The notes under the pieces are model-generated. The model searched no databases. It saw only the letters and a list, made by a program, of their open reading frames with translations, and was not told the DNA's origin. Shown here one piece after another: positions 41,198-62,677 of a stretch of DNA of 64,000 bases (its first letter is position 1; each line of letters starts with the position of its first letter). Origin of the DNA: Acidisoma cellulosilyticum (GTDB lineage Bacteria > Pseudomonadota > Alphaproteobacteria > Acetobacterales > Acetobacteraceae); contig NZ_JAESVA010000005.1 of the NCBI RefSeq assembly GCF_020621385.1, positions 1-64,000 on the forward strand, read 5' to 3'. A program made the position numbers and the translations under genes.

Positions 41198-41512
41198 AGG
41201 ACAGACCCTTCTGAAGCCTATCCGTCTTAGAAGAGGCTTCCGAAAGTCTGTAATCCGCAAAAAGCCTTAGGGGCCTCATGCAATCGGATCTGCCGACTTT
41301 TGCACCCGCGAATAGCCGAGGGTCGCGTGCGGCGCCGCTACCGCTTTTCGGTCAGAGCAGATCCCGGTCAGATGGACTCATCTGGCCGGGTGAAGATGCT
41401 CGCAAAAACAATAATCTGGAGCGGTATTTGCGCGCGTAAGCGAACAGGTACCGCTCCAGGCGCATCCGCCTGAAGCTGGCGCCCGGGCAGGAATCAGGCT
41501 GGTGCGATAAAA
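41198..41512. other. Intergenic region with dispersed-repeat copy 1
   Basis: This 315-base gap lies between the divergent acyltransferase and hypothetical genes. About a third of it is occupied by the dispersed repeat at 41355-41459. The rest shows no gene or clear promoter. Confidence 0.5.
41355..41459. repeat. Dispersed two-hairpin repeat, copy 1
   Basis: About 105 bases. Hairpin A: CCCGGTCAGATG, loop GACT, CATCTGGCCGGG (one T:G mismatch). A conserved linker AAGATGCTCGCAAAAACAAT follows. Hairpin B: CTGGAGCGGTA (41416-41426) pairs with TACCGCTCCAG (41449-41459). The same layout recurs at 52983 and 62529. No protein-coding role is evident. Confidence 0.85.
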
Positions 41513-42490
41513 ATGGGACTACTGACGAAAGTTGCGCCGACAACTATAGTCAGGATCAAGAGGATGATTGCCGGAATGGTCAACCGATCCGGATCGTCAG
41601 ACTTGGCAGTTCGGCGCCAGAATAAGCTTGATCGAAAGCAGCCAATGGAAACGGTCGGGTTTCGCGGTTCTCTGTGTATCGGCTATAACATCAAGTTTGA
41701 TTTCACAATTAATCCAGGAAAATGGGCTAAGAATTCCCAATATGCCAATGACCAGTTCTACGCCAACATGGCGAAATCCTTCGGCGTTTCGGCCCATAAC
41801 GCCAGCTATAGCGGCAATGCCGTCACAGCAGGCGGTGCGGCCGCCGCAAGCTTTCTCATAGGGTTATTTGACCCGGCACCGGTCGTTCCTAAGCCTAAGC
41901 TCGGCTATTGGGTGCCGCCGACCGCGGAGCTTAATGACGGCATCAGGTCCCTTCTTTGGGGCGGTACTGTCGTATCACCTGAAACCGCGATGAATTTCTT
42001 CGGTGCTGCCATCGTTAAATACGCAGACAGTTGGCGGCTGCAGATGTACGGCAAACAGGCTGAGGAAAAAGGCAATACGGCGTTGTACGCAGCAGAAAAA
42101 AATTCGCTCCGTTTCTTGACCGTGACCCGTGGGATCCGAACGCCTTCTCCTTCACGCCAGGCAAGAGCATCGTTCATGATCTCAGTGATCGTGCCGAGAA
42201 ATGGTTCCCGGGCAGCACCGATCCTTCAGATCGGCCTGCACGATCTGCTTTACCAATACACGGTCGATAAAATAAGCCAGCTTAAAAGCCCGCAGGCGCT
42301 GTATCAGTTTCTCAAAGGCCCTGACAGCGCCTACCTGGCCGATGATCACATGTCGCGCTCGGCTCTGCTCGATGTCTGGTGGGATAACAACAAGAACGGC
42401 GAATGGAACAGCGGCACCAGCTATGACTCGCTCCAGGCCAAAGCCTGGCACGACAAATTTCAGGGTGAGTTCTGGAAGCGCGAGAGCTAA
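41513..42490 (+). CDS. Unrecognised protein, probably disrupted by two compensating frameshifts
   Basis: An open frame of 325 codons, but it reads as three segments. Up to about 42095 it is protein-like (GYWVPPTAELNDGIRSLLWGG). From 42103 to about 42215 the frame turns into Arg/Ser-rich text, while the -1 frame reads sensibly (FAPFLDRDPWDPNAFSFTPG, then GKSIVHDLSDRAEKWFPG). After about 42225 the first frame is sensible again, to the end (DNNKNGEWNSGTSYDSLQAK). The first switch coincides with a run of seven A residues at 42096-42102. No ribosome binding site is seen at 41513; ATG 41645 may be the true start. I do not recognise the family. Confidence 0.5.
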   Translation: MGLLTKVAPTTIVRIKRMIAGMVNRSGSSDLAVRRQNKLDRKQPMETVGFRGSLCIGYNIKFDFTINPGKWAKNSQYANDQFYANMAKSFGVSAHNASYSGNAVTAGGAAAASFLIGLFDPAPVVPKPKLGYWVPPTAELNDGIRSLLWGGTVVSPETAMNFFGAAIVKYADSWRLQMYGKQAEEKGNTALYAAEKNSLRFLTVTRGIRTPSPSRQARASFMISVIVPRNGSRAAPILQIGLHDLLYQYTVDKISQLKSPQALYQFLKGPDSAYLADDHMSRSALLDVWWDNNKNGEWNSGTSYDSLQAKAWHDKFQGEFWKRES

Positions 42491-42508
42491 GCTTAACGCC
42501 CTGCGCCT

Positions 42509-42553
42509 GCCGCCTTTGCTGGACGCGGCTGAGCCCCGGCCAGCAAAGGCGGC
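42509..42553. terminator. Strong hairpin between the unrecognised gene and tRNA-Ala
   Basis: GCCGCCTTTGCTGG (42509-42522) and CCAGCAAAGGCGGC (42540-42553) form a perfect 14-base-pair stem with a 17-base loop. It lies between convergent transcription units: the hypothetical gene (+) and the tRNA pair (-). A TTTT follows about ten bases later on the plus strand. It is probably a transcription barrier for both. Confidence 0.55.
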
Positions 42554-42585
42554 GGGCAGTCCGGTTTTCTGCGTTTCTGGGGGGA

Positions 42586-42661
42586 TGGTGGAGATGACCG
42601 GAATCGAACCGACGACATCCTGCTTGCAAAGCAGGCGCTCTACCAACTGAGCTACATCCCC
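42586..42661 (-). tRNA. tRNA-Ala (anticodon TGC)
   Basis: A 76-base cloverleaf on the minus strand with encoded CCA. The acceptor pairs GGGGATG with CATCTCC (one G-U pair). The D-arm is GCTCAGTTGGTAGAGC, the anticodon loop CTTTGCAAG gives TGC, and the T-loop is GGTTCGATTCC. It lies 12 bases from tRNA-Glu and is probably co-transcribed after it. Confidence 0.95.
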
Positions 42662-42673
42662 GCCCGGCATAAT

Positions 42674-42750
42674 TGGCGTCCCGTACGAGATTCGAACTCG
42701 TGTTACCGCCGTGAAAGGGCGGTGTCCTAGGCCTCTAGACGAACGGGACG
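42674..42750 (-). tRNA. tRNA-Glu (anticodon TTC)
   Basis: A 77-base cloverleaf on the minus strand with encoded CCA. The acceptor pairs CGTCCCG with CGGGACG. The anticodon loop in GCCCTTTCACGGC reads TTC and the T-arm is GAGTTCGAATCTC. It precedes tRNA-Ala on the same strand. Confidence 0.95.
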
Positions 42751-42909
42751 AACCATTCTGCGATGTGATGAGATGCCTTGCGGCGCCTCATCAGGCCGTG
42801 TCGCTGGGTAGCCGAGGGCCGTTCCGGAATCAACCCCTGCGTCGCGCATTTTTGGTCAGAAGCATGACAAGGCTCTCCCGCTCCTGATGCAGGGGCGGGC
42901 AGCGCGCGG

Positions 42910-44679
42910 TCAGGCCCAGGCGGCGTCCTGCAGAATGAAGCTGGCGCTGACCACACCATTCCATTCCTCGGCCCGCAGATAGCCCGCCAGATGCAGCGGC
43001 CGGCGGCCGGTATCGGTCAAAGCCTCGGCCAGCGGCCCGGTCTTGCCACGGAACAGCAGGGTTTTGAGCCGCCCGCCGCCTTCACCCTCGACAATGGCGC
43101 GGATGGTGCCGCCGTCCTTGCCGATGCGGTCCACCTTGGTGACGCGGGCATGGCTCATGATCAGCAGCGGCTCGTCATTGCCCTGGCCGAAGGGGGCGAG
43201 GCGGGACAGATACTCCGCCACCTGCACGGTCGCCCCGCGCGGTGTCATGACGCCTTCGATCGCGAGTGCCGCCGCCGCCGGCATCATGCTGGCTGCCACC
43301 AGGCGATCGTTCAGGAAGGCATGCAGTGCCGGCACGCCCTCGATGGGCAGGGAGAAGCCAGCGGCCATGGCATGGCCGCCGCCACGTTCCAGCAAGCCGT
43401 TCTGCCGTGCGGCCAGCACCGCCGCGCCGATATCGATGCCGGGGACCGAACGGGCGGAGCCTGTCGCGCGGCCCTCGGCATAGGCCATGACGGCGGCAGG
43501 GCGGTTGAATTTCTCTTTCAGGCGTCCGGCGACGATGCCGACGACGCCGGCATGCCAGCCTTCGCCGCCCACCAGCAGCGCCGGATGTCCGGCGGCGATC
43601 TGGGCCTCCGCCAGCCTGATCGCCTCCTCCATGACGCCCAGTTCGATCTGCTGGCGCTGGCGGTTGATGCTGTCCAGCAGTTCCGCGATTTCGCGGCCCT
43701 CGTCCGCGTCCTGGGTCAGCAGCAGACGCAGGCCGAGACCCGAATCGGCAACGCGGCCGCCGGCATTGATGCGCGGCCCGATGGCGAAACCGCAGGAGGT
43801 TGTGGTCGGCACGCCGCGCGTGCCGGCAATTTCCAGCAGAGCCGCGACTCCGGGCCGGTTGCCGCGCGCCATGATGCGCAGGCCTTGGGAGACGAAGGCG
43901 CGGTTGAGACCCGTCAGTGGCATGACGTCGCAGACGGTTGCCAGTGCCACCAGATCCAGCAGCGCCATCAGATCAGGCTCGGGCTTTGTCGCACCAAAAA
44001 ATTCGTCCCGCCGCAGATGGCGGAGGATCGCGACGGCCGTGAGGAAAGCGATGCCGGTGGCGCAGAGCGAGCCCTGGCCCGAGCCGCAGTCCAGGCGGTT
44101 CGGGTTGACCGTCGCCAGGACCGCAGGCGGTGGGCCTTCCGCCTTGTGGTGGTCCAGCACGATCGCATCCGCCCGGCCGGTCAGGCAGGTCAGAGTATCG
44201 TGGGCGGCGGTGCCGCAATCGACACAGATGACGAGGCTGGCGCCCTTATCGACCAAGGCGCCGAGAGCGGTCGGGTTAGGGCCATAGCCCTCCGTCGCGC
44301 GATCAGGAATATGCGTAAAGACGATGCAGCCCAATCCGCGCAGCAATTCAGTCATCAGCGCGGTCGAGCAGGCGCCGTCGACATCGTAATCGCCGAAAAT
44401 GCCGATCGTCTCGCCGCGCTTCACCGCTTCGGCGATGCGCGCTGCCGCGTGATCCATGTCGATCAGCGTCGAAGGATTTGGCAGCAGGGCACGCAAAGTC
44501 GGTGTCAGATAATGCACGGCCTCTTCGATGCCGATGCCGCGGATAGCGAGCAGGCGCCCGACGATTTCCGGCACATCGAGCTTCTGCGCAATGCCGAGGC
44601 CAAGATGCGCGGGCAGGGCATCCGCCCCCGCGCGCCACAGCCAGCGGCGGCCGCTCAGGCTTGTCTCCACCCCCAGCAC
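42910..44679 (-). CDS. recJ: Single-stranded-DNA-specific 5'-3' exonuclease RecJ
   Basis: A 589-residue DHH/DHHA1 phosphoesterase. Motif I is IFGDYDVDGACSTA, the DHH motif is VLDHHKAEG, and IGPRINAGGR is typical of RecJ. It degrades ssDNA 5'-3' in recombination, mismatch and base-excision repair. GTG 44679 (VLGVETSLSGRRW) is chosen because GAGG lies about seven bases upstream and RecJ homology starts there; the open frame extends to 44865 but overlaps glpX with low-complexity Ser/Pro text. It follows glpX on the same strand. Confidence 0.92.
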   Translation of the reverse strand: MLGVETSLSGRRWLWRAGADALPAHLGLGIAQKLDVPEIVGRLLAIRGIGIEEAVHYLTPTLRALLPNPSTLIDMDHAAARIAEAVKRGETIGIFGDYDVDGACSTALMTELLRGLGCIVFTHIPDRATEGYGPNPTALGALVDKGASLVICVDCGTAAHDTLTCLTGRADAIVLDHHKAEGPPPAVLATVNPNRLDCGSGQGSLCATGIAFLTAVAILRHLRRDEFFGATKPEPDLMALLDLVALATVCDVMPLTGLNRAFVSQGLRIMARGNRPGVAALLEIAGTRGVPTTTSCGFAIGPRINAGGRVADSGLGLRLLLTQDADEGREIAELLDSINRQRQQIELGVMEEAIRLAEAQIAAGHPALLVGGEGWHAGVVGIVAGRLKEKFNRPAAVMAYAEGRATGSARSVPGIDIGAAVLAARQNGLLERGGGHAMAAGFSLPIEGVPALHAFLNDRLVAASMMPAAAALAIEGVMTPRGATVQVAEYLSRLAPFGQGNDEPLLIMSHARVTKVDRIGKDGGTIRAIVEGEGGGRLKTLLFRGKTGPLAEALTDTGRRPLHLAGYLRAEEWNGVVSASFILQDAAWA

Positions 44680-44761
44680 GGCCTCAGCCTCGGTCGGGGA
44701 GGGGGAGGAGACGAGCGCGCTCAGCGCCGCGTCCCCCGCAAGCCGGTGATGGCTTCGCGCA

Positions 44762-45745
44762 TCATGCGTTGGTCCAATGCTTGATGGCGAAGTCGTGCTG
44801 CGCTTCGACGAAGCGGACGGTGCCGGACTTGCTGCGCATGACGACGGAATGGGTGACGGCGCCACTTTCCGTCCGCAGCACGCCGCGCAGCATCGGGCCC
44901 GTGGTCACGCCGGTCGCCGCGAACATGACGTCGCCGCCGGCGATCTCGTGCAGGCTGTATTTGCGGTTGGGGTCGACCACACCCATGGTCTTCGCCCGTT
45001 CGATCTGGGCGTCATCCTCATACAGCAGGCGGCACTGCATCTGGCCGTTCATGCAGCGCAGGGCGGCCGCCGCGATCACGCCTTCAGGCGCGCCACCGGA
45101 ACCGAGATAGATATCGACGCCGCTTTGCGGCAGGGCGGTTGCGATGCAGCCGGCGACGTCCCCAGCTTCGATCAGCATGATGCGCGCACCGGCTTCGCGG
45201 CACTCCGCGATAATCTCGGCATGGCGCGGGCGATCCAGGATGCAGACGACGAGATCGGAAATATCGACTTTCTTGGCGCGGGCGAGGTTGCGCAGATTGG
45301 CGCCGGCCGGCGCGTCCAGGTCGACCACACCCTGGGGCAGGCCCGAACCGACGGCGATTTTCTGCATGTAGATATCCGGCGCATGCAGGAAGCGGCCCTT
45401 ATCGGCCAGCGCGATCACGGCCATGCCGTTGGCCGCACCCTTGGCGACGATCTCGGTGCCTTCCAGCGGGTCGACGGCGATGTCCATCTCGACGCCGCCC
45501 ATGCCGACCTTCTCGCCGATATAAAGCATCGGCGCCTCGTCCATCTCGCCCTCGCCGATGACGACGGTGCCCGAGATGGCGACCGAGTCGAAGGCGTGGC
45601 GCATGGCTTCCACGGCCGCGCCGTCGGCGGCGTTCTTGTCGCCGCGGCCGATCCATTTGGCGGCGGCGATGCCGGCCGCCTCCGTCACCCGCACCAGCTC
45701 CAGGGCTAGGTTACGGTCGGTATGTTGGCGGGGAAGCTGGGACAT
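44762..45745 (-). CDS. glpX: Fructose-1,6-bisphosphatase class II GlpX
   Basis: A 327-residue class II phosphatase. Metal and substrate motifs are VVIGEGEMDEAPMLYIGE near residues 55-72 and DIAVDPLEGTE near 80-90. It hydrolyses fructose 1,6-bisphosphate in gluconeogenesis. ATG 45745 is chosen because AGGAG lies about six bases before it. It lies between hom and recJ in a run commonly seen in alphaproteobacteria. Confidence 0.93.
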   Translation of the reverse strand: MSQLPRQHTDRNLALELVRVTEAAGIAAAKWIGRGDKNAADGAAVEAMRHAFDSVAISGTVVIGEGEMDEAPMLYIGEKVGMGGVEMDIAVDPLEGTEIVAKGAANGMAVIALADKGRFLHAPDIYMQKIAVGSGLPQGVVDLDAPAGANLRNLARAKKVDISDLVVCILDRPRHAEIIAECREAGARIMLIEAGDVAGCIATALPQSGVDIYLGSGGAPEGVIAAAALRCMNGQMQCRLLYEDDAQIERAKTMGVVDPNRKYSLHEIAGGDVMFAATGVTTGPMLRGVLRTESGAVTHSVVMRSKSGTVRFVEAQHDFAIKHWTNA

Positions 45746-45823
45746 GGCGTGCTCCTTCAAGATCTCGCTCGCGCGGGGACGAGCCTAGCCCGGCCCGCGC
45801 CGATTCGTGAAATAACGCGGGTA

Positions 45824-47125
45824 TCAGGCGGCACCGATGCGGATCAGCGCCGGCGGTTCCAGGACGCTGTCGAGATTCGCAATGGCCGATAGCGCCTGCA
45901 TCATCGCACCCTCCGTCGTCTCATGCGTCACCAGCACGATCGGCACCGATTCGCCCGGTGCGCGGCCGTGCTGCAACATGGATTGCAGGGACACGCCGGC
46001 ATCACGCAGCACGGCGGTGACGTCCGCCATCACGCCGGACCGGTCGCGTACCATCAGGCGCAGATAATAGGCGCCCTGATGCGCCGACATCGGCAAAGCC
46101 GGCAGCTTGCCCAGCGCATAGCCTTCCACGCCCCAGATTGGGGTCAGGCGTCCGCGTGCGATATCGATGAGGTCCGCCACCACCGCTGAAGCGGTGGGTC
46201 CGGCACCGGCGCCACGGCCCATCAGCATCACGCGGCCGACGAAATTGCCTTCGGCCACGACCGCGTTGAAGACGCCGTCAACCTGGGCGATCTCCTCCGC
46301 TTCCGGCACCATGGTGGGGTGGACGCGCATCGAGACACCGTCCGCCGTGCGCTTGGCAATGCCGAGCAGCTTGATGCGGAAGCCAAGTTCGCGCGCGAAA
46401 GCAATATCCAGCGCGGTGATGCGGCGAATGCCTTCCACATGGAGGGCCGCGAAATCGACCGGCTGGCCGAAGGCGAGCGCGCCCAGGATGGCGAGCTTAT
46501 GGGCGGCGTCGACACCGTCGATATCGAAGGCGGGGTCGGCCTCCGCGTAGCCGAAGGCCTGGGCGTCGGCCAATACTTCAGCGAAGTCGCGACCCTGCTC
46601 GCGCATCACCGTCAGAATGTAATTGCAGGTGCCGTTGAGGATGCCGGAGACCGAGATGATCTCATTGGCGGCCAGCCCCTCGCGCAGCGCCTTGATGGCA
46701 GGAATGCCGCCGGCAACCGCCGCCTCGAAGCCCAGCGGCACGCCGTATTCTTCTGCCAGACTGGCGAGTTCGGCGCCATGCAGGGCCAGCAGCGCCTTAT
46801 TGGCGGTGACGACCGGTTTGCCGGCGCGGATGGCGGCACGCACCGTATCGGCCGCCGGGCCTTGCGCGCCGCCGATGACCTCGACCACCACATCGACATT
46901 GTCGTCGGTCGCGAGCGCGACCGCGTCGTCATGCCAGATCAGGCCTTCGGTCGCGAAACCGCGGTCCCGCGTGCGGTCACGGGCGGACACAGCCGTGACC
47001 GTAATCGGCCGGCCGGCACGGGCGCTGATGATAGCCGCATTCTGACGCAGAACATTGACCGTGCCGGCACCGACGGTGCCAAGGCCCGCTATGCCGACGC
47101 GCAGCGGTTTGTGGGGGTCGCTCAT
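45824..47125 (-). CDS. hom: Homoserine dehydrogenase with ACT domain
   Basis: A 433-residue NAD(P)-dependent enzyme. Residues ~10-20 hold the Rossmann GIAGLGTVGAGTV. The catalytic region has FDIDGVDAAHKLAILGALAFG. A C-terminal ACT domain (~350-433, YYLRLMVRDRSGVMADVTAVL) allows threonine feedback. It makes homoserine for threonine and methionine. ATG 47125 overlaps the aminotransferase stop (ATGA), which fixes the start; the longer open frame upstream is a shadow. Confidence 0.94.
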   Translation of the reverse strand: MSDPHKPLRVGIAGLGTVGAGTVNVLRQNAAIISARAGRPITVTAVSARDRTRDRGFATEGLIWHDDAVALATDDNVDVVVEVIGGAQGPAADTVRAAIRAGKPVVTANKALLALHGAELASLAEEYGVPLGFEAAVAGGIPAIKALREGLAANEIISVSGILNGTCNYILTVMREQGRDFAEVLADAQAFGYAEADPAFDIDGVDAAHKLAILGALAFGQPVDFAALHVEGIRRITALDIAFARELGFRIKLLGIAKRTADGVSMRVHPTMVPEAEEIAQVDGVFNAVVAEGNFVGRVMLMGRGAGAGPTASAVVADLIDIARGRLTPIWGVEGYALGKLPALPMSAHQGAYYLRLMVRDRSGVMADVTAVLRDAGVSLQSMLQHGRAPGESVPIVLVTHETTEGAMMQALSAIANLDSVLEPPALIRIGAA

Positions 47126-48351
47126 GCGGATACCTGCGGAGTAGAGGCCGGCAGAGCGCCAGCGGATTGATTGCCGTCGCTGGCCAGGAAGGTGCGGATA
47201 TTGCGCACCGCCTGCCGCAGCCGCTGGGTGTTCTCGACCAGCGCGATGCGGACATGGCCGTCGCCGTATTCCCCGAAGCCGATGCCGGGGGCGACGGCGA
47301 CGCGGGCGCGTTCCAACAGCAGCGTCGAGAAATCGAGGCTGCCCATATGGGCGTAGCGCTCGGGGATCGGTGCCCAGGCGAACATGGAGCCGCGCGGGCT
47401 GGGCACGTTCCAGCCGGCGGCGGCCAGGCCAGGAATCACGACGTCCCGCCGCTCCCGATACAGTTGTCGCGCGGCTTCCACGCAATCCTGCGGGCCGTTC
47501 AGGGCGGCAGCGGACGCCACCTGAATGGGCGTGAAGGCGCCGTAGTCGAGATAGGATTTCATGCGCGCCAGCGCCGTCACCAGCCGCTGGTTGCCGGCGG
47601 CGAAACCCATGCGCCAGCCGGGCATGGAATAGGTCTTGGACATGCTGGTGAATTCCACCGTGACGTCGCGGGCGCCCTCGACCTGCAATACCGACGGCGG
47701 CGGCGCGCCGTCGAAATACAATTCGGCATAGGCAAGGTCGGACAGGATGAAGAATTCATGCCGGCGCGCGAGCGCCACCAGTTCCTTGTAGAAATCCAGC
47801 GTGGCCAGCTCTGCCGTCGGGTTGGACGGGAAATTGACGATCAGCGCGGTCGGCTTCGGCACGGAATGGCGGACGGCACGGTCGATGGCGCGCAGCATCT
47901 CGTCATCCGGGGTCGCGGGGATGGAGCGCACAGTCGCCCCGGCGATGATGAAGCCGAACTGATGGATGGGGTAGGAGGGGTTCGGCACCATGATGGTGTC
48001 ACCCGGGCTGGTGATCGCGGCGGCGAGGTTCGCCAGCCCCTCCTTGGACCCGAGCGTCGCGATAACCTCGGTCTCGGGATCCAGCGTGACGTCGAACCGA
48101 CGCTGGTAATAATTGGCGAGCGCGCGGCGCAGGCCTGTGATGCCGCGGCTGACCGAATAGCGATGCGTGCGCGGGTCCTGCACCGCTTCCACCAGCTTCG
48201 CCACGATATGTGGCGGCGTCGGGCTATCCGGATTGCCCATGCCGAGGTCGATAATATCGGCCCCTTCGGCGCGAGCGGCGGCCTTGGCCTTGTTGACGAC
48301 CGCGAAGACATAAGGCGGAAGCCGGCGGATGCGGTGGAACTCTTCGGTCAT
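47122..48351 (-). CDS. Class I aminotransferase (alanine/LL-diaminopimelate type, AlaC-like)
   Basis: A 409-residue PLP enzyme of fold type I. It has IIDLGMGNPDSPTP near residue 33, NFPSNPTAELA near 170, the PLP lysine in TSMSKTYSMPGWRMGF near 235 and RVAVAPGIGFGEYGDGHVRI near the C-terminus. It resembles glutamate-pyruvate aminotransferase AlaC and LL-DAP aminotransferases. Its linkage to hom is common in alphaproteobacteria and suggests a role in alanine or aspartate-family amino acid synthesis. Confidence 0.87.
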   Translation of the reverse strand: MTEEFHRIRRLPPYVFAVVNKAKAAARAEGADIIDLGMGNPDSPTPPHIVAKLVEAVQDPRTHRYSVSRGITGLRRALANYYQRRFDVTLDPETEVIATLGSKEGLANLAAAITSPGDTIMVPNPSYPIHQFGFIIAGATVRSIPATPDDEMLRAIDRAVRHSVPKPTALIVNFPSNPTAELATLDFYKELVALARRHEFFILSDLAYAELYFDGAPPPSVLQVEGARDVTVEFTSMSKTYSMPGWRMGFAAGNQRLVTALARMKSYLDYGAFTPIQVASAAALNGPQDCVEAARQLYRERRDVVIPGLAAAGWNVPSPRGSMFAWAPIPERYAHMGSLDFSTLLLERARVAVAPGIGFGEYGDGHVRIALVENTQRLRQAVRNIRTFLASDGNQSAGALPASTPQVSA

Positions 48352-48434
48352 GGCAGGTGGTCCGAACGGGGGTGAAGCACGAAAGGGGAAAAGCCGTTAC
48401 GCCCAATCCCCCCGTTGCTCAATCCGTTCAATCG

Positions 48435-49718: not shown

Positions 49719-49785
49719 ACAGCCCTTATCCTTGTAGGCGGGGGTTGGTCTAACCCAAGCGGCGAATGCCGGAAAGGATCGTGTC

Positions 49786-51594: not shown

Positions 51595-51648
51595 CGCTCC
51601 GCCGCAGTCGGAGGGTGACGGGGGCGGCCGGTCTGGGTAAGAGGCGCT

Positions 51649-52962: not shown

Positions 52963-52982
52963 GGCCTCGTGAAAAACCCCTG

Positions 52983-53078
52983 GAGCAGATCACGGTCAGA
53001 TGGAATCATCTGACCGGGTGAAGGTGCTCGCAAAAACAATAATCTAGAGCAGCGTAAGCGAATAGAACACGATCTAGA
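52983..53078. repeat. Dispersed two-hairpin repeat, copy 2
   Basis: About 96 bases in the gap between rmuC and the beta-barrel gene; it reaches the stop codon of the latter. Hairpin A: CGGTCAGATG, loop GAAT, CATCTGACCG. The linker AAGGTGCTCGCAAAAACAAT is conserved. Hairpin B is shortened: TCTAGA boxes at both ends with an ~10-base deletion relative to the other copies. Confidence 0.85.
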
Positions 53079-53997
53079 AACGAATGTTTCCGGCCAGAAT
53101 GACGCCGCCGAGGTCCAGCCTCTCAACCCCGCTCGTCTTGCTGCCGCCGTCAAAGGCCAGAAAGCGATAGCCCAGAGATAGATCGAGCCAGTTTGTCGTT
53201 TTGTATGCGACAGCGCCATAGACTTGCCACGTCAACGGCACAGACCCGCCGCCTGCATCGACGTAGAAAGGGAAATAGATATTGCTGTTCGGAATGTTGA
53301 TGCGCCCTGTCACGCCACCGATGCCTTCGACATGCGACGCATTCAACGTGAGCCGTCCATCACGCGACAGCGCCACGGTCTGATTGGGGCCTTGGACATT
53401 GGCGGCCAGCGTGTAGTTGCTGCTGGCCCCGATAAATAGCTTGCGCATGCCAAGAACGGCATCGAGATTGCCCCAATCGCCCTGCAGCAGCGTGTAGCCG
53501 CCGGCAACCGACCAGATCGTCGTCGCCAGTCGCGTTCCGGTTTCAAGCTGCTGGTCTCGGGGGACATAGATCGGTCCCGACCCGAGATTGACCGAGGAGA
53601 TATGGCTGTCCGAACTCGTGATACTGGCATTGGCGTAGACGAGATCGGTCATGAGGGTGAAGCGTCCGTATCTCGCCTCGGCCCCGCCCATCAGGGCGAA
53701 ATTGAGTTGCGACAGATAGTCTCCGATACCGGAACTGACTGTATTGGTGACGCTGCCGACACGAGATCCCGTGTAGCTATAGGTGCTCGATACCCGCGGC
53801 AGCCAGGCATAAGGTGTCGTCGAAAAGCTCCACCCTTGTGTGGATTGGATCGGTGTCGGTGATACTGATGCCACCTGGGCGCGGCTGTGCGGGGCGAATG
53901 AAAACAAACCGGCGGCCGTGCAGAGCAGCAGCGAACCACGCAGGCGGAAACGGCAAGGGCTTCGGGATCGGCGTGTGATCAAGGTCGGCACGAGCAA
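53074..53997 (-). CDS. Outer-membrane beta-barrel protein of unknown function
   Basis: About 307 residues. A signal sequence (RGSLLLCTAAGLFSFAPHSRAQ) is followed by alternating aromatic strands typical of a barrel (FSTTPYAWLPRVSSTYSY, LSLGYRFLAFDGG) and a C-terminal Phe in AGNIRF. The start is uncertain: TTG 53997 or GTG 53991 lie just after the YSC84 gene stop, while the longer frame to 54036 overlaps it. It follows the YSC84 gene closely and may be co-transcribed with it. Confidence 0.72.
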   Translation of the reverse strand: MLVPTLITRRSRSPCRFRLRGSLLLCTAAGLFSFAPHSRAQVASVSPTPIQSTQGWSFSTTPYAWLPRVSSTYSYTGSRVGSVTNTVSSGIGDYLSQLNFALMGGAEARYGRFTLMTDLVYANASITSSDSHISSVNLGSGPIYVPRDQQLETGTRLATTIWSVAGGYTLLQGDWGNLDAVLGMRKLFIGASSNYTLAANVQGPNQTVALSRDGRLTLNASHVEGIGGVTGRINIPNSNIYFPFYVDAGGGSVPLTWQVYGAVAYKTTNWLDLSLGYRFLAFDGGSKTSGVERLDLGGVILAGNIRF

Positions 53998-54001
53998 GGG
54001 C

Positions 54002-54559
54002 CTAGAGCTTTGTGATCTTCGAGCCTTCGATACCAAGCCCCGCCATCAGTCCCTTCTGGCTGAAGATCATAGCGTAGATATCCTGGGTGATCGTGCTTGA
54101 CGTCAGTTTCCTGGCCATCCCTGCATCAACCACGACGACGCTCGGGCCGACGCCGATCTCGAATCCGGATGATTTATCAAGATAGCTGAGTGCTGTGTCG
54201 GTCATCAGAAATAGGGCATAGCCGAACCACTGCGCGCCAACCTGCAATCCGTAGGACGCGGCGGCAGAACTATAATGACCGGTGACGCGGCCCTGCTGGA
54301 TCATCGCACCTTCGCCATAAGCGCCGCCGAGCACAAAGCCGATCTTCACGATTTTGGGGAAGATCAAAACGGCAGTCGCCTTTGCCGCCAGCTTTCGTGC
54401 CGCCGCGTTCTCTCGGGTCAGCTTGCTCAAGGCTGCCAGAGCAGCGCGATCCTCCTGTGGGTCGGCCTGCCCTGTCGCGGCAAAGGCAGCGCTCGCGGGC
54501 GCCAAGACAGCGAGCCCGGCAACGAATGACCGTCTATCAATGAGCATCGCTTTCCCCAT
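54002..54559 (-). CDS. YSC84/SYLF-domain exported lipid-binding protein
   Basis: A 185-residue protein with a signal peptide (residues ~1-28, ASAAFAATG). The SYLF/YSC84 domain is shown by KATAVLIFPKIVKIGFVLGGAYGEGAM, with the GxQ-type follow-up ASYGLQVGAQWFGYALFLMT. Bacterial members are exported proteins of poorly known function, thought to bind lipids. ATG 54559 or 54547 may be the start. Confidence 0.82.
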   Translation of the reverse strand: MGKAMLIDRRSFVAGLAVLAPASAAFAATGQADPQEDRAALAALSKLTRENAAARKLAAKATAVLIFPKIVKIGFVLGGAYGEGAMIQQGRVTGHYSSAAASYGLQVGAQWFGYALFLMTDTALSYLDKSSGFEIGVGPSVVVVDAGMARKLTSSTITQDIYAMIFSQKGLMAGLGIEGSKITKL

Positions 54560-54786
54560 TCGATCACCAGTCGTAGTGATCTTAGATCAAACTTATTCCA
54601 AATAAAATATACAGAGAATCAATGCAGTTACGATGTCGTTTATATCCTGTGTCGAATGGAATTGGCTAGTGGCGAATAGGCCCCTGCGCAAAGTTGCGTC
54701 ATGGCAATTTACGATTTAGATCAATAAGCATCTGCTGATAAGAAAAGTCCGCTCGCTCGGGCTTCATTGAAGAGGGCTCACGAACG

Positions 54787-56304: not shown

Positions 56305-56369
56305 CGCTAGAGCTTTGTGCGGGAACAGACGCTTGCGCTCATGAGATTTAACGGCCAAGGCCGAAAAAA

Positions 56370-56401
56370 GCGGGCCGGAATCCCCTGTTATTCCGGCCCG
56401 C
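56370..56401 (-). terminator. Rho-independent terminator of ompW
   Basis: GCGGGCCGGAAT (56370-56381) and ATTCCGGCCCGC (56390-56401) form a perfect 12-base-pair stem with an eight-base loop. Read on the minus strand the stem is followed by TTTTTT, so it terminates the OmpW gene, whose stop is 11 bases away. It may also stop transcription from the convergent DUF1254 gene. Confidence 0.88.
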
Positions 56402-56411
56402 CTCTCGACCC

Positions 56412-57128
56412 TCAGAACCGGTAGCCGAAACCGACACCGAATACTGTGGGGTTGAGGGCTGTCTTGGCCTTTACACGGCCGGCGACGCTGTCGATGTCCG
56501 CTGTCGTGTTGATGAACATCTGCTTCGCATCGACATTCACAAACCAATGGTCAGCGATATTGTAGTCGAAGCCGATATCGAGCGTCGGTCCGGCAGTCGT
56601 GCTGAGGCTGAACTTCTGCACGGTCGGTGTCGCCGGATCGCTCGCATAGAAGAAGGCGACGGTGACGCCGAGGCCGAGATAGGGGCTGAAACGGTCATCG
56701 GGCAGGAAATGGTATTGCAGCGTCAGGGTCGGCGGCAGCACCCAGGCATTGCCGACATCGACATGGCCGAGTGCGGTGTCACCCGCGGAAATCCGATGAT
56801 GCGTGCTGGCCGCAATCGCCTGCAACGCCCAGTGGTTGGTGAGAAAATAGGTGAGGGTCAGTTCGGGCGAGACGCCGCCGCTGGCATTCACATTGCCGCC
56901 GATGGGGCTGATACTGCTGGAGAATGTCTCCGGGATCACGCCGATGACGCTCAAGCTGGTCTCAAAAGTCCCGGCCTTCAACGGTGACGGCGCCGGGCTG
57001 AAAAAGCCGATGCCCGAATTCTGGGTCGCTTGCTGCGGGTTGACTGTCTGGGCCTTCGCCTTATCGGGAAAGGCTCCGAGCAGCGCGACCGCGATCGCAC
57101 CCAACCCCAATATGCTCCACCGCTTCAT
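56412..57128 (-). CDS. OmpW-family outer-membrane protein
   Basis: A 238-residue eight-stranded barrel protein. The signal peptide ends at DKAKAQT (~residue 26). OmpW features are FSPAPSPLKAGTFETSLSVIG, PPTLTLQYHFLPDDRFSPYLGLGV and the C-terminal FGVGFGYRF. It forms a small hydrophobic channel in the outer membrane. ATG 57128 is chosen because GGAGG lies six bases upstream. It has its own strong terminator. Confidence 0.88.
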   Translation of the reverse strand: MKRWSILGLGAIAVALLGAFPDKAKAQTVNPQQATQNSGIGFFSPAPSPLKAGTFETSLSVIGVIPETFSSSISPIGGNVNASGGVSPELTLTYFLTNHWALQAIAASTHHRISAGDTALGHVDVGNAWVLPPTLTLQYHFLPDDRFSPYLGLGVTVAFFYASDPATPTVQKFSLSTTAGPTLDIGFDYNIADHWFVNVDAKQMFINTTADIDSVAGRVKAKTALNPTVFGVGFGYRF

Positions 57129-57447
57129 GCGATCCTCCATCACGTTGTCCGTGCTGGGCATGAAGTCAGCCGGCGGGGCGAAAAGCCTTGATCGAGCGCA
57201 AAGCAGCCTTATGCTGCGGTGCAATGCAGCCCTGCACGACTAGTCTTCCGGCCAGGGATGGTTCAGCATGAAACGCAAGGGATTAAGAGCCTAAGCCGGG
57301 AGGGCGGCTTGCGAGCCAGGGCCTTTTTGCTAAAGATTAGTGAAATAGAAGCTACCAGCCTGTTCAGGGCTATTCCTGACCAAACGATAAGTACTTTTTG
57401 CCGGCCTGGGCTAATGAGCGACCCGATTTTCGAGGCTGGAGGCGGTT
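57129..57447. other. Intergenic region between divergent ompW and giant glycosyltransferase
   Basis: This 319-base region contains short open frames without convincing support. It must hold divergent promoters. Immediately before the glycosyltransferase is a clean GGAGG at 57438-57442. No repeat or RNA gene is seen. Confidence 0.45.
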
Positions 57448-57474
57448 CTGACGACCGATAAGTTTCAAGCGTTA

Positions 57475-60400
57475 TTGGCGGAGATCGACGTCCGCTACTT
57501 CGACGCGGCCTTCTACCTCGAAACCTATGCTGATGTTCGCGGTGCCGGGGTTGATCCGCTGCACCATTATGTAAGCTGGGGTGTCTACGAAGGACGCGAC
57601 CCCAACGCTTTCTTTTCCAACACCTGGTATCTGCTGCAAAATCCGGATGTTATGGAATCCGGGATCACGGCCCTGCATCACTACGCGACCTTCGGCGCGC
57701 AGGAGGGGCGTGACCCGCATCCGCATTTCGATGTCAATTTCTACGCCAGTCAGGTGCCGGAAGCGGCTGAGGAGCCACTCCTTTATCATCTGCACGTCGG
57801 TCAGGCGCTGGGCCTGCCGACCCGACGCCCTTTCTCCATCACCCAGGCCATGCCGTCGCGCGGTGTCTTCCACGAGCCGCCGGCCGAGGTCGCGGTCGAT
57901 ATCGTCATCCCCGTCTATCGTGGGCTTGAGGAAACGCGCAATTGCCTGCGCAGCGTGTTGCGGGACCGTCGTCCCGGACGTCCGGGGCTGCTTCACCGCA
58001 TCGTCGTCATCGACGATGCTTCTCCTGAACCCGAACTCTCGCGCTATCTCGATCGCCTCGCCGCGCGGCGTTTCATCCATCTACTGCGCAACCCGCGCAA
58101 TCGCGGATTTGTCGCTTCGGCCAATCGCGGCATCAAGGAAGCGGGCAACCGCGATGTCGTGCTGCTCAACGCCGACGCGGCGGTACCATCCGGCTGGCTG
58201 AGCCGCCTGGCGGGGCAGGCCTATAGCCATCCCAAGGTCGCCAGCGTCTCGCCCTTGTCGAACAATGCGACGCTCTGCTCCTACCCCGGTGTGCCCGGTG
58301 GGCCGCTACCCTTTGGCGAAAGCCTGGAGGCGATCGACGACGCCTGTGCCGCGGCCAATGCCGGCCGTGCCGTCCCCGTGCCGACGACGGTCGGCTTCTG
58401 CATGTATCTCCGCCGCGATGCGCTGAACGAGCTGGGGGTGCTGGACGCCAAGACCTTCGGACGCGGTTACGGCGAGGAAAGCGATTACTGCATGCGCGCC
58501 AATGCCGCCGGCTGGCGGCATCTGCTGGCCTGCGACCTCTTCGTCTATCATCGCGGCGAGGTGAGTTTCGGGGAGCATGTACCCGAACGCGCGGCCAATG
58601 CGGCGCTGCTGCATGCGCGCTGGCCTGACTATCAGCGTCGCGTCGGTCTGCATTTGCGGTTGGATGAGGCGCTGCCTTTCCGCGTTGCGACCACGCTGCA
58701 GCTTTTCGCGACCAATGGCCTGCCGACCGTCTTGATGGTGCAGCACATCTATGACGGCGGCATCGGCCAATATATCCGCGATCTGACCTTGCGCTGCCTG
58801 GGGCGCGCCAATGTTCTGGTTGTGCGCGCCACGACCGATGGGCGCGGCGTAGCGCTGGCCGTACCGGCCGCGGCCGATCATCCGGAATACGTCATTCCGC
58901 TGCCGAAGACCGAGATCGAAGATCCCGATCTGGCGGACCTTGCCGCCCAGGATGCGGTGCTGAAGGATGTGCTGTCGCTGCTGGCGCCCTTACGCATCGC
59001 CCGCGTTCACGTGCAACACTGGATCAATCTGAAGCTTGATCTGCGCGCATTGATCCGCGCGCTCGACGTGCCGTTCGATGTCACGGTGCATGATTGGTTC
59101 GGCATTTGCCCGCGGATCAATCTGCTGCCTATGGCGGATGGGCCAAGCTGCGGCGAACCTGCCGCCGCTGTCTGCAACCGCTGCATCCAGACCCGCGATG
59201 ATACGGCCGCGCATGATATTGCGGGCTGGCGGGCGGAACATGCCTGGCTGTTCCGGCTCGCGGATCGCGTGCTCTGCGCGACCGAGGACAGCATCGAAAG
59301 GCTGGCGAAATATGGCCTCGCCAGCCGCGCCGTGCTGGCGCCGCTGGAAGCGATGCCCGAGCTTGTGCCGCCATGCCCGACCGCCAAGCCTGAACCGAAG
59401 CCCATCCGGGCCCGTGCGGCGACCCGGCCTCTGCGTGTCGCCGTGCTCGGCGTGCTTGCCGACCATAAGGGCGCGCAAAACGTTTTGGCGGTGGCGGAAC
59501 TGGCCTCCGCCGACCGTCTCGCCATCACCCTGATCGGCAAGTCCGAACGCGGTATTCCTGAGGCCGCGCGCGCGGTGCTGAGCGAAACCGGCGCTTACGA
59601 GGCCGACGAACTGCCGGCGCTGATCGACCGGGTCGACCCGGATGTGATCTGGTTTCCGGCGACCTGGCCTGAGACCTGGAGCTATACGCTGACCCAGGCC
59701 ATCCTGTCCGGCCGGTCGATCCTGGCGTCAGACATAGGCGCGTTTCGCCCGCGTCTGGCAGGCCATCCCCGCGCGCGGATGATCGCACCCGATACGATGC
59801 CCGAGCAGGTGATCGCTGCCTTGTCGACCCTGGCCAGGGTGAGCCAGGCCCCGCGCGGGCGGACGGATGATCGGCAGGCGCCACCCGCGCCGCTAAGGCC
59901 GAGCTATTACGATGGTGCCTATCAGGCGCCGCTTTCGGCCCCGGCCATACGCGCGTCCAAGTCGCGCATGCCGGTCGATTTGCGGCGGGATGGCAAGCTT
60001 TCGGTAGTGCTGGTGCCGGAACGGCTTGATATCGGCGTGCTGAGCGGTTGCACTTATATTCGCGGCCTCTTGCCGCTGACGCATGCGGCGGCGGGACGGG
60101 ATATCGAGGTAACCTTGGCCTCGGCCGAGGAAGCGCTCGGTCTCAAATCCGATATCCTGATGGCGCAGCGCTTCGCCGTGCCGGATCAGGAATCTGCACG
60201 GCGGCTGCTGGTCCATGCCCGCAATAGCAGGACGCCACTGCTCTATGATCTGGACGACGATCTTGTGGATCTCCCCGCCGACCATCCCGAAGCAGAGCGA
60301 CTGAGGCCCCTGGCGGCCGGCATTGCCACGCTTCTGTCCGGGGTGAGCCGCGTGCATGTCTCGACCGCCCGCCTGGCGGAGCGGCTGGTGTCGCTGGTGC

Positions 60401-61254
60401 CGGGGGGAAGGGCTGCGATCGATATCGTTCCGAACGGTCTGGATGAAGAGCTCTGGTCGCTCGGGCTGGGGGACCAAGGCAAGCCGGAGATGGCGGCTCT
60501 CGCGGCGGCCGGCGTGCAGATGGGGCCGGTGCGCATCCTGTATATGGGCACGGCGACCCATGGCGCGGATCTCGACCTCATTCTGCCGGTGCTTCGACGT
60601 CTGCATGAGACTTTCGGGGACCGGATCGCGGTCGACCTTGTCGGCGTCACAGGTCCGGGAGAGCTGCCGTCCTTCGTCAACCGGGTGGTCGTGCCACGCC
60701 GGGCCGGCCTCTCCTATCCGGCCTTCGTCGGCTGGCTGATGGAGCGGCATCGGCGCGAGCCCTGGGCCATCGGTCTCGCCCCATTGGTCGATACGCCGTT
60801 CAATCGCTGCAAATCCTCGATCAAGATGCTGGACTACGCGGCGCTGGGCCTGCCGACGGTCGCGTCCGATATGGCGGCCTATCATTCTGGCGAGGGCCTG
60901 CCGCTGGCGCAGCCGCTGAGCCTTGAGGGCATCGAAGCCGGCGGCTTTCTCGCCGCCGATGAGGCGCAGTGGTACCACGCCTTGGCCCAGCTTATTCGGC
61001 GCCCGGATTTGCGGCTGGCGATGGCAACGCAAGGGCGAGAGGCGCTGCTGCGCGACGGCGTGCTGGCGGCCCAGGCCGGGTCGCGCCGCGCTGGGCTGGA
61101 GGCCATCGCCGCTTCGCAGGCGACCTGGGGCCAGGCCAGTTCAGGCAATCCCAGACCGAGCAAGGCAATCTCGCCGCCGCAAGAGCAAGATGCGGAGAGT
61201 TTACCCGTCAAGCCAACCTCCAAGAGGCGTGTGCTTTCCTCCGGCCGGGCTTAA
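57475..61254 (+). CDS. Three-module glycosyltransferase (~1260 residues)
   Basis: A very long cytoplasmic glycosyltransferase. Residues ~5-110 hold two or three repeats of the type FDAAFYLETYADV / DPLHHYVSWGVYEGRDP seen before many exopolysaccharide transferases. A GT2 domain starts near 141 (VDIVIPVYRGLEETRN) with a DxD-like LNADAAVP near 229. A GT4-like module spans ~415-780 (HDWFGICPRINLL, TWPETWSYTLTQAILSG). A second GT4-like module spans ~850-1200 (YDLDDDLVDLP, KSSIKMLDYAALGLPTVASD). TTG 57475 is the first usual start codon, but a CTG at 57448 has an ideal GGAGG. It probably adds several sugars to a surface polysaccharide. Confidence 0.85.
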   Translation: MAEIDVRYFDAAFYLETYADVRGAGVDPLHHYVSWGVYEGRDPNAFFSNTWYLLQNPDVMESGITALHHYATFGAQEGRDPHPHFDVNFYASQVPEAAEEPLLYHLHVGQALGLPTRRPFSITQAMPSRGVFHEPPAEVAVDIVIPVYRGLEETRNCLRSVLRDRRPGRPGLLHRIVVIDDASPEPELSRYLDRLAARRFIHLLRNPRNRGFVASANRGIKEAGNRDVVLLNADAAVPSGWLSRLAGQAYSHPKVASVSPLSNNATLCSYPGVPGGPLPFGESLEAIDDACAAANAGRAVPVPTTVGFCMYLRRDALNELGVLDAKTFGRGYGEESDYCMRANAAGWRHLLACDLFVYHRGEVSFGEHVPERAANAALLHARWPDYQRRVGLHLRLDEALPFRVATTLQLFATNGLPTVLMVQHIYDGGIGQYIRDLTLRCLGRANVLVVRATTDGRGVALAVPAAADHPEYVIPLPKTEIEDPDLADLAAQDAVLKDVLSLLAPLRIARVHVQHWINLKLDLRALIRALDVPFDVTVHDWFGICPRINLLPMADGPSCGEPAAAVCNRCIQTRDDTAAHDIAGWRAEHAWLFRLADRVLCATEDSIERLAKYGLASRAVLAPLEAMPELVPPCPTAKPEPKPIRARAATRPLRVAVLGVLADHKGAQNVLAVAELASADRLAITLIGKSERGIPEAARAVLSETGAYEADELPALIDRVDPDVIWFPATWPETWSYTLTQAILSGRSILASDIGAFRPRLAGHPRARMIAPDTMPEQVIAALSTLARVSQAPRGRTDDRQAPPAPLRPSYYDGAYQAPLSAPAIRASKSRMPVDLRRDGKLSVVLVPERLDIGVLSGCTYIRGLLPLTHAAAGRDIEVTLASAEEALGLKSDILMAQRFAVPDQESARRLLVHARNSRTPLLYDLDDDLVDLPADHPEAERLRPLAAGIATLLSGVSRVHVSTARLAERLVSLVPGGRAAIDIVPNGLDEELWSLGLGDQGKPEMAALAAAGVQMGPVRILYMGTATHGADLDLILPVLRRLHETFGDRIAVDLVGVTGPGELPSFVNRVVVPRRAGLSYPAFVGWLMERHRREPWAIGLAPLVDTPFNRCKSSIKMLDYAALGLPTVASDMAAYHSGEGLPLAQPLSLEGIEAGGFLAADEAQWYHALAQLIRRPDLRLAMATQGREALLRDGVLAAQAGSRRAGLEAIAASQATWGQASSGNPRPSKAISPPQEQDAESLPVKPTSKRRVLSSGRA

Positions 61255-61287
61255 ACTTGCTCCGGTTCCGACACCGGAGTTTAGGTA

Positions 61288-62487
61288 TTGCTGCAAGCTT
61301 TGACCAAACGCTTCCTTGCCCCGCGCGAGGATCTCTCTCGCCGCCGGGATAATCCGGCCGGTCAGAGGGTGACGAATATCGAGCTTTTCTTCGATCTCGT
61401 TTTCGTCTTTGCCGTGACCCAATTGTCCCACAGCTTGCTGCCTGAGCCCACCGGCACGAAGGCCCTGCACACGCTGCTGCTGTTCGGAGCCATCTGGTGG
61501 ATCTGGATCGACACCAGCTGGGTCACGAACTGGCTGGACCCGGACCGGCCGCCCGTGCGCCTGATGCTGCTGGCGCTGATGCTGGGCGGGCTTGTGCTGG
61601 CGGCGTCCATTCCCGATGCCTTCGGCGCGCGCGGTCTTGTCTTCGCATTGTGCTACGCCGTCATGCAGGTCGGGCGTTCGCTCTTCATGCTCTGGGCGCT
61701 GTATGGCCGCAGCCGCAGCAATTTCCGAAATTTTCTGCGCATCACCATCTGGATGGCGGCGACCGCGGTGTTGTGGATCGCGGGCGGCCTGGCGGGCGGC
61801 GATCTGCGTTTTGTGCTTTGGCTGCTGGCGCTCGCCCTCGATCTCGGTTCCGCCTGGGCCGGATTTTGGGTCCCGGTGCTGGGCCGGTCCGTCACATCGG
61901 ACTGGGATATCGACGGCGCGCATCTGGCGGAACGCTGTGCAGGCTTCGTGCTGATCGCGCTCGGTGAGTCGATCACCGTGACGGGCGCGACGTTTTTTGA
62001 AACCGCCTGGTCGCCCGCCGTGCTGTGGAGCTTTCTCGCGGCCTTCCTGGCGACGGCCGCCATGTGGTGGATCTATTTCGATACCGGGGCCGAGCGCGGT
62101 AGCGAGCATATCGCGCGTGCCGAGGATCCGGGGCGCATCGCGCGCGTCCTCTATACCTATGTTCATGCGATTATCGTCGCGGCCGTTATTCTGGGGGCTG
62201 TCGGAGACGAGATGACCCTGGCCGAAGCCAGCAAGCCCGCCGGTGCGCCGGCGCTGCTTGTCCTGCTCGGCGCACCCATCCTGTTTCTGATGGGCAATAT
62301 CGCATTCAAACAGGCGCTTATCGGGCGGCTACCACTGTCGCATCTGGTCGGCCTTGCTCTCATGATCGTGGTCGCTTTGTGGTCGGCGGGGCAGAGCATG
62401 CTGGCCGTCAATCTGGCGACCAGCGGTGTGCTGATCGTCGTCGCGATCTGGGAAAGCCGGTCCTACCGCCGGCCGATGTCGCGCTGA
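61288..62487 (+). CDS. Low-temperature-requirement A (LtrA) family membrane protein
   Basis: A 399-residue protein with about eleven helices. The family opening NIELFFDLVFVFAVTQLSHSL is at residues ~31-51. LtrA is named from Listeria cold growth; its biochemical role is unknown. The TTG at 61288 is the start taken, with AGG close upstream; no ATG is available before the homology. It lies 33 bases after the glycosyltransferase gene and may be co-transcribed. Confidence 0.86.
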   Translation: MLQALTKRFLAPREDLSRRRDNPAGQRVTNIELFFDLVFVFAVTQLSHSLLPEPTGTKALHTLLLFGAIWWIWIDTSWVTNWLDPDRPPVRLMLLALMLGGLVLAASIPDAFGARGLVFALCYAVMQVGRSLFMLWALYGRSRSNFRNFLRITIWMAATAVLWIAGGLAGGDLRFVLWLLALALDLGSAWAGFWVPVLGRSVTSDWDIDGAHLAERCAGFVLIALGESITVTGATFFETAWSPAVLWSFLAAFLATAAMWWIYFDTGAERGSEHIARAEDPGRIARVLYTYVHAIIVAAVILGAVGDEMTLAEASKPAGAPALLVLLGAPILFLMGNIAFKQALIGRLPLSHLVGLALMIVVALWSAGQSMLAVNLATSGVLIVVAIWESRSYRRPMSR

Positions 62488-62528
62488 GACAAGCCGGCGC
62501 GGTTTGATGAGGCGGCCCGGCATCGCTA

Positions 62529-62634
62529 GAGCAGATCACAGTCAGATGGAATCATCTGACTGTGTGAAGATGCTCGCAAAAACAATAATCTAGAGCGGTA
62601 TCTGCGAGTGTAAGCGAGCAGGAAACGCTCTAGA
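62529..62634. repeat. Dispersed two-hairpin repeat, copy 3
   Basis: About 106 bases between ltrA and the NagB-like gene. Hairpin A: CACAGTCAGATG, loop GAAT, CATCTGACTGTG, a perfect 12-base-pair stem. The linker AAGATGCTCGCAAAAACAAT matches copy 1 exactly. Hairpin B: TCTAGAGCG (62589-62597) pairs with CGCTCTAGA (62626-62634). Its stems differ from copies 1 and 2 at both partners of the same pairs. Confidence 0.87.
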
Positions 62635-62677
62635 AGACGCGCTATCGGATGCCATCGGATTTTTGGGACGGGATTTT

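Follow-up and report, generated by a model that had tools for sequence, protein, structure and literature searches.

CcrM-associated intergenic repeats (CIR) were reportedly described by Chen and Shapiro in 2003 (J Bacteriol 185:4997), and RIME1 of Osteras et al. 1995 is said to be an intergenic mosaic of ~100 bp with two palindromes. Here we analyze a repeat of this kind that is present three times in a stretch of 64,000 nucleotides (the window), the beginning of contig NZ_JAESVA010000005.1 of Acidisoma cellulosilyticum (Acetobacteraceae). The copies probably belong, as non-autonomous elements (miniature inverted-repeat transposable elements [MITEs]), to the CIR class of alphaproteobacteria and owe their movement to an IS630-family transposase acting in trans. 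Their likeness to RIME1 is one of described anatomy.

According to the review PMC2229807, CIR are ~110 bp long and consist of two stem-loop arms and a linker, with TA termini and without long inverted repeats; GANTC is located in the terminal loop of one arm, and occurrence is reported for Caulobacter and Brucella. Their target duplication is listed there as "?" and the mechanism of mobility is left open. The present repeat agrees with this account in length, in the two arms plus linker, the TA ends, the GANTC in a loop, the intergenic location, the alphaproteobacterial host and the presence of CcrM in the genome. It differs, as far as that account goes, in its host family and in the empty sites, the stop-codon excess and the IS630-family candidate found here. 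Our assignment of the repeat to the CIR class goes by description rather than by comparison with the published CIR1-4 sequences.

The same review describes the pneumococcal RUP as a TA-target repeat with IS630-Spn1 as the proposed mobilizer. Like the present repeat, RUP is short (~107 bp) and non-autonomous and targets TA. Unlike here, neither a two-arm-plus-linker plan nor GANTC is described for RUP in that text; RUP has its ends in common with a resident IS630-family element, and in our case one end alone closely matches the insertion sequence (IS). ERIC and Correia/NEMIS are also small, with TA ends, stable stem-loops and no transposase gene, but according to PMC2229807 they form one stem by end-to-end pairing, whereas the present repeat folds into two separate hairpins joined by a linker. 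REP/REPIN and the GTAG/CGTC palindromes, as described in PMC3733652, are likewise palindromic and intergenic and occur as singlets and doublets; unlike them, our repeat has no GTAG/CGTC tag, and no RAYT was found in its genome. PMC3733652 also gives CGTC repeats as missing in Acetobacteraceae. RIME1, the Rhizobium-specific intergenic mosaic element, is cited as Osteras et al. 1995 in PMC2573895. Our literature search, whose coverage did not extend to the original 2003 CIR and 1995 RIME1 papers, returned no publication that connects CIR or RIME repeats with IS630 or with stop codons. For this real, mobile and structured repeat of a known class, we propose a mobilizer and an insertion rule.

Copies, anatomy and arm complementarity

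A preliminary description of the window had noted three copies, and copies were indeed present at all three places (Table 1; the bounds given include the base that precedes the left TA and the one that follows the right TA). The linker, described as nearly invariant, gave three pattern matches without mismatch in the window, compared to 0.01 expected from shuffles. The hairpins of copies 1 and 3 folded as claimed (RNA energy z, -9.3 and -7.7). Folding was weaker for copy 2 (z, -3.9), owing to its reduced length of 98 bp and the disruption of most of its hairpin B.

Further copies were sought throughout the genome, a 98.5% complete draft of 6.0 Mb in 59 contigs. The covariance model R1 yielded 93 matches at E ≤ 0.01, at least 88 of them at E ≤ 1e-8; these counts are lower bounds, with 150 of 2324 candidates scored. 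Of the other five matches, four have coordinates that overlap those of a stronger copy, and the fifth is a hairpin B on its own. Furthermore, the linker was found 82 times at up to 2 mismatches, versus once for the reversed control.

The element is 108 bp long in 49 and 107 bp in 12 of the 70 copies of this genome with both ends located; among 34 matches from other genomes, which include the spurious L102 and L118, 26 measure 108 bp. Hairpin A follows the plan GAGCA-GA-T-(12-bp stem, 4-base loop)-TGA-A-GA-TGCTC. It is followed by the linker GCAAAAACAATAAT and by hairpin B (CTAGAGCG...CGCTCTAG, with GA/GA mismatches and a 4-base loop). The ends are CTAG/CTAG in 33, TTAG/CTAG in 10 and CTAG/CTAA in 4 of the 70 copies, and a 56-copy consensus starts with CTAGAGC and ends with GCTCTAG. 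Long terminal inverted repeats are lacking, the two ends having in common only about GAGC(R). In copy 1, which ends in TCAG and CCAG, both terminal TAs are mutated.

Partial and composite forms were also observed. L122 is a hairpin A alone with TA-type ends, and L260 is a hairpin B alone. In relatives, L105 and L124 contain the hairpin-plus-linker unit at least twice in a row and are thus modular mosaics. L264 (G000:C4:355043-355195) is a complete copy abutted by a lone hairpin, with mixed arm type and a right arm complementing a left arm.

The paired arm changes noted in the window (CCCGG versus CACAG and CTGGAG versus CTAGAG) are real, and the variants occur throughout the family; two arm types, ACAG/CTGT and CCGG/CCGG, were found in the A. 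cellulosilyticum genome. Covariation was analyzed in an alignment of 56 copies (31 from this genome and 25 from others), taken from 85 distinct full-length copies (59 and 26, respectively). Both hairpins covaried: in the 36 pairs, 90.1% of the cells were paired, and 21 pairs showed double changes. Pairing fell to 27-40% when the partners were slid by 1-3 columns. Cells with double changes numbered 153, versus 46.6 in shuffles, and none of 500 shuffles was as high.

It had been held that this compensation implies selection on the RNA or on the DNA palindrome. The stems do stay paired, but covariation alone is no proof of RNA selection. By eye, the left arm of L021, L030, L077 and L083 complements the right arm at positions where other copies differ; L083 carries a copy-private variant in both arms, L077 has one mismatch between the arms, and L021 and L030 score 23/23. 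These copies with one arm rewritten look like products of intrastrand correction of a DNA quasi-palindrome. Since arms were rewritten to match in a few copies, the covariation need not all reflect selection, and we take them as a caution that covariation in a DNA palindrome can arise without RNA selection.

Empty sites, insertion target and stop codons

For 11 copies (10 of 25 complete flank pairs and copy 3 of the window), both flanks align in a genome of the same genus that lacks the element at that site. The remaining 15 of the 25 flank pairs gave no two-sided alignment in same-genus genomes, and the flanks of window copies 1 and 2 were not alignable in the same-genus genome G004. A second search detected an empty orthologous site for L052, too. 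At copy 3, the junction is clean to the left and to the right, a single CTAG in G004 corresponding to CTAG-element-CTAG in A. cellulosilyticum. We infer that duplication of TA is the general rule. The base before the left TA is C in 44 and T in 17 of 63 copies, and the base after the right TA is G in 57 and A in 4 of 63. The insertion target is (C/T)TA(G/A), i.e., YTAR, and is slightly oriented.

Sixty-six of the 70 copies were used for analysis of the genomic context, four being dropped for want of two called neighbors. Their gaps were convergent in 28, tandem in 36 and divergent in 2 cases, versus 24, 86 and 30 of 140 reference gaps; divergent gaps were avoided (P = 3e-4) and convergent gaps favored (P = 2e-4). 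In line with the preliminary description, all window copies are intergenic, with the refinement that the right end of copy 2 is the stop codon of a minus-strand open reading frame (ORF). Indeed, an element end lay exactly on the stop codon of a neighbor, via the terminal TAG, in 31 of the 66 copies (20 left, 14 right, 3 both), compared to 35 of 316 non-coding YTAR sites (P = 3e-13). This P value overstates the excess, because divergent gaps are avoided, and we prefer the stratified P value of 2e-4. In the strata, 17 of 28 copies versus 10 of 31 sites were on stops in convergent gaps, and 14 of 36 versus 20 of 139 in tandem gaps (Mantel-Haenszel odds ratio, 3.56; P = 1.9e-4). The stratified baseline comprised nine stretches of the A. 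cellulosilyticum genome and one of G004 with element-bearing gaps left out, while the 316-site baseline includes such gaps.

By eye, relatives have a stop codon at the same position for L042, L050, L082 and L075 and, as far as the flank aligns, for L002 and the right-hand gene of L009. The left stop at L009 probably belongs to an ORF running into the element. At L009 (where the left stop is doubtful), L018 and L050, convergent genes were called as ending on both element ends, as if overlapping stops had been split.

In G129, a genome of another family, 7 of 15 copies coincided with stops, compared to 4 of 68 sites (P = 1e-5); its locus L253, which contained no element by pattern, had been dropped. 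The count for a mixed set drawn from related genomes was 8 of 24 copies at stops, a weak figure given the rough gene calls (9 of 24 called divergent) and a set without baseline; six further copies of this set lacked two called neighbors. An insertion rule of this kind, with copies in excess precisely at stops, was unexpected. A probable cause is survival after insertion: landing on the TA of a TAG or TAA stop leaves the protein intact and avoids promoters, so that such copies survive. A direct preference for stop codons is possible; if true, insertion would be nearly harmless, which would explain the spread of the element.

IS630 ends, GANTC and rival explanations

A search of the genome for DDE_3 (IS630-type) domains gave four matches on three small contigs, and the IS630-type genes on contigs C26 and C31 were above the cutoff. 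Upstream of the gene, both contigs contain TAGAGCGTTTCCTGTTGG, and downstream of it C26 contains ...CATGAAACGCTCTA. The left ends of the IS are TAGAGCGTTTCCTGTT on C26 and C31, and the right end on C26 is TAGAGCGTTTCATGTT; the IS630-family ends of this genome start with TAGAGCGTTTC. An IS110-type ORF interrupts the IS copy on C26, and it is at the same point that the open frame of the C31 copy ends. Relatives of a 203-aa segment of the transposase were detected in 543 plasmid records, with most of the counted genus names rhizobial. Six related IS630 records out of these were examined. Four contain a complete IS of 1049-1051 bp, with all ends beginning with TAGAGCGT, and the other two contributed one end each, beginning with TAGAGCGTTTC. 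Furthermore, in genome G022 a copy (L112) adjoins an apparent IS630-type transposase gene, the far end of which reads TAAAGCGGAAACG... by eye.

IS630 elements target TA. Read inwards, the right end of the repeat corresponds to the 16 bases of the IS left end at 16 of 16 positions in 26, at 15 in 22 and at 14 in 11 of 69 copies. In copy 3, 15 of 16 positions agree when the last 16 bases of hairpin B, as far as the TA, are read inwards on the opposite strand. Among 2502 TA sites of the window, one alone reaches at least 13 of 16; it scores 15 and is copy 3 by its sequence.

The IS and the repeat also have a GANTC position in common. GANTC (including the variant GACTC) is present in loop A of 58 of 69 copies in A. 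cellulosilyticum and of only 15 of 30 copies from related genomes. It lies at offset 22 from the left terminal TA in 57 of 69 and 14 of 30 of these copies, respectively, and in 11 of the 21 class-wide elements listed. None of the 99 copies of the two genome sets has GANTC in the 45 bases next to its right end. At offset 22, GANTC was present in six of six IS left ends (two from this genome, identical over 60 bases, and four from plasmids) and in none of five IS right ends; L283 fits by eye. The common offset would fit a common left end of IS and element. The genome encodes CcrM (N6_N4_Mtase and RAMA domains; best PDB match CcrM 6pbd, E = 2.6e-143). The IS630 left ends L203 and L279-L282 contain at least three GANTC in their first 60 bases, the last of which closely precedes the start codon; this hints that the transposase gene, too, is under CcrM control.

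According to the mechanism that we propose, the IS630 transposase would bind the element ends and insert the element at TA, duplicating the TA, and CcrM methylation of the left-end GANTC may affect a transposition step. The arm complementarity would lie outside this model, with templated correction of one arm by the other as one candidate explanation. Together, the empty sites, the matching IS630 end and the common GANTC offset offer a concrete answer to the question of how CIR-type repeats move, and suggest that GANTC serves transposition rather than gene regulation.

Several observations weigh against this proposal. Compared with the left end of the IS, that of the element agrees at only 8-11 of 16 positions, so that the likeness is mostly at one end, and the target ends are asymmetric (P = 0.003). 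A transposase acting on double-stranded ends does not need conserved hairpins. Both IS copies examined (C26 and C31) are interrupted, no intact mobilizer being seen in the draft, and a Caulobacter control genome gave no DDE_3 match, though CIR repeats are reported there. The six IS left ends are homologous and two are identical, so they represent few independent events. The case for TA duplication comes from the junction of copy 3, clean on both sides, and from those of L002 (clean on the left) and L009 (clean on the right); a TGA stop occupies the site in the relative for L042, L050, L082 and L075, and the remaining junctions are blurred. The genes were called by a home-made codon-usage script, and in genome G081 there was no stop excess (1 of 11 copies at stops, counting both L235 and L236, whose identical values may point to a duplication).

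The location of the copies at gene 3' ends was circumstantial support for another option of the preliminary description, a functional RNA element at mRNA 3' ends (a terminator or stabilizing hairpin) under site-by-site selection: 64 of 66 copies are in convergent or tandem gaps and 2 in divergent ones. The strong folding would suit such a role, as would the preponderance of G-T over A-C pairs on the element strand of 75 distinct copies (hairpin A, 42 versus 15; hairpin B, 89 versus 51), but the latter counts are inflated by shared descent. Moreover, copies are missing at orthologous sites in the same genus. Polarity towards tandem genes was not detected (16 versus 20; P = 0.62), and no terminator-like site (a hairpin followed by a T run) was found on either strand of 62350-62850 around copy 3, the one copy scanned. 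Because polarity and a terminator-like site at copy 3 are both lacking, tolerance of spread at gene ends is a likelier reading than a conserved role at the 3' ends of mRNAs, which we regard as unlikely. The asymmetric GA/GA loops and stems, conserved across genera and needless for recognition of double-stranded ends, would be more readily explained by a transposase that recognizes a folded single strand, the IS630 likeness then reflecting common origin or a shared target only. The oriented target ends and the element left end, which is unlike the IS, also point in this direction. However, the right end has a 16-base identity with an IS of the same genome, the TA target and the GANTC offset are those of the IS, and no candidate enzyme was seen, making a single-strand transposase improbable.

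The GANTC in loop A of most copies, the encoded CcrM and the same GANTC offset in elements of several other families would also be expected if the loop were a CcrM/GcrA signal and the copies were kept as methylation-related chromosomal sites for cell-cycle control. But the loop GANTC is kept in only half of the related-genome copies, the copies are at gene 3' ends and not at promoters, and the copy number drops from at least 88 to 0-1 within one genus; we consider this explanation very unlikely. As for the REP/RIME-like reading put forward earlier, the repeat does belong to the RIME/CIR type, being dispersed, structured, mobile and intergenic. The hairpin singlets and doublets (L122, L260) could be accounted for, as in REP singlets and REPINs, by a REP/REPIN system with RAYT (a Y1 tyrosine transposase) as its mobilizer. 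The RAYT that had been looked for was not found, with 0 Y1_Tnp (PF01797) matches in the 98.5% complete genome in a search whose control was positive in 5 of 14 genomes. What the genome has instead is an IS630-family element with a match to the right end of the repeat. The consensus ends are CTAG, without a GTAG or CGTC tag. Accordingly, we reject the REP/RAYT system for want of Y1_Tnp matches in this genome and give it next to no credence.

Mobilization by an IS630-family transposase can be extended, tentatively and with considerable doubt, to the view that CIR-type repeats of alphaproteobacteria are MITEs of one IS630 lineage. The CcrM site at a fixed 22 bases might then restrict movement of IS and repeat to a given methylation state, just after the replication fork, and the transposition complex might truly prefer stops. 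An analogy for methylation-timed transposition is the control of IS10 by Dam in enterobacteria.

Distribution, a second repeat family and window features

BLAST detected matches in 10 of 59 other genomes, including one of four of the same genus: G001 had one match, and G002-G004 had none. Scanning a genome-contig collection with a 26-base exact pattern gave no match. A 21-base core pattern gave 31 stretches, 27 of them from Acetobacteraceae genera (Neoroseomonas, Roseomonas, Gluconobacter, Brytella and others). Two further stretches, from Lichenibacterium and an alphaproteobacterial metagenome-assembled genome (MAG), contain full elements. The matches L129 (Paraburkholderia) and L146 (a Sulfurimonas MAG) were judged by eye to be chance. 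In addition, two Komagataeibacter plasmids carry half copies. With stricter filters, matches to model R1 at E ≤ 0.001 occurred in 8 of the 113 other alphaproteobacterial genomes sampled, each of a different family, and most of the class-wide matches that were read have the same plan and TA-type ends. The elements of G116 and G145 follow this plan with an AAAACAA linker, and those of G129 end with GATGCTCTA. The fixed two-hairpin plan is common to Acetobacteraceae and, more distantly, to these eight sampled genomes.

The A. cellulosilyticum genome harbors a second family of repeats, 163-200 bp long and with the inverted ends TAGAGTYYGTCNGRTTT (e.g., L004:1602-1765, L046:1293-1457 and L074:2094-2265). 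At up to 1 mismatch, 147 such ends were found, versus 0 for the reversed control. Six of 15 copies end on the stop codon of a neighbor, in a sample biased towards copies near the 108-bp family. In L064 (minus strand, from 2057), a copy of the 108-bp element has its internal CTAG occupied by a second-family repeat that is flanked by TA to the left and right; this is a TA duplication by the second family. At one and the same stop codon, A. cellulosilyticum has a 108-bp element (L018) and G004 an apparent second-family member (L266).

Table 1. Positions of the repeat copies, their parts and adjoining ORFs in the window
Feature	Position	Strand	Description
Copy 1	41352..41459	+	Complete 108-bp element, CCGG-type arms; 118.7 bits, E = 6e-23 (covariance model R1)
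GACTC (GANTC), hairpin A loop, copy 1	41375..41379	.	Sequence
Copy 2	52980..53077	+	Shortened 98-bp element, degenerate hairpin B; 82.5 bits
ORF adjoining copy 2	53074..54036	-	Stop codon 53074-53076 is the terminal CTA of the element (right CTAG)
Copy 3	62526..62633	+	Complete 108-bp element, ACAG-type arms; 123.5 bits; empty site in same-genus G004
Left CTAG, copy 3	62526..62529	.	G004 has a single CTAG here
Hairpin A, copy 3	62529..62575	+	Outer stem GAGCA/TGCTC, GA/GA internal loop, 12-bp inner stem
GAATC (GANTC, CcrM site), hairpin A loop, copy 3	62549..62553	.	22 bases from the left terminal TA
Linker GCAAAAACAATAAT, copy 3	62576..62589	+	Alignment columns 51-60 invariant or at least 90% conserved
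Hairpin B, copy 3	62590..62633	+	CTAGAGCG...CGCTCTAG, GA/GA mismatches, 4-base loop
Right CTAG, copy 3	62630..62633	.	Junction comparison with G004
ORF downstream of copy 3	62663..63400	+	Open reading frame

The ORF downstream of copy 3 reads as what we take to be a glucosamine-6-phosphate deaminase. An Rfam search of the window returned two tRNAs only, the repeat having no Rfam match. Two tRNA genes are neighbors on the minus strand, at 42589-42661 and 42677-42749.

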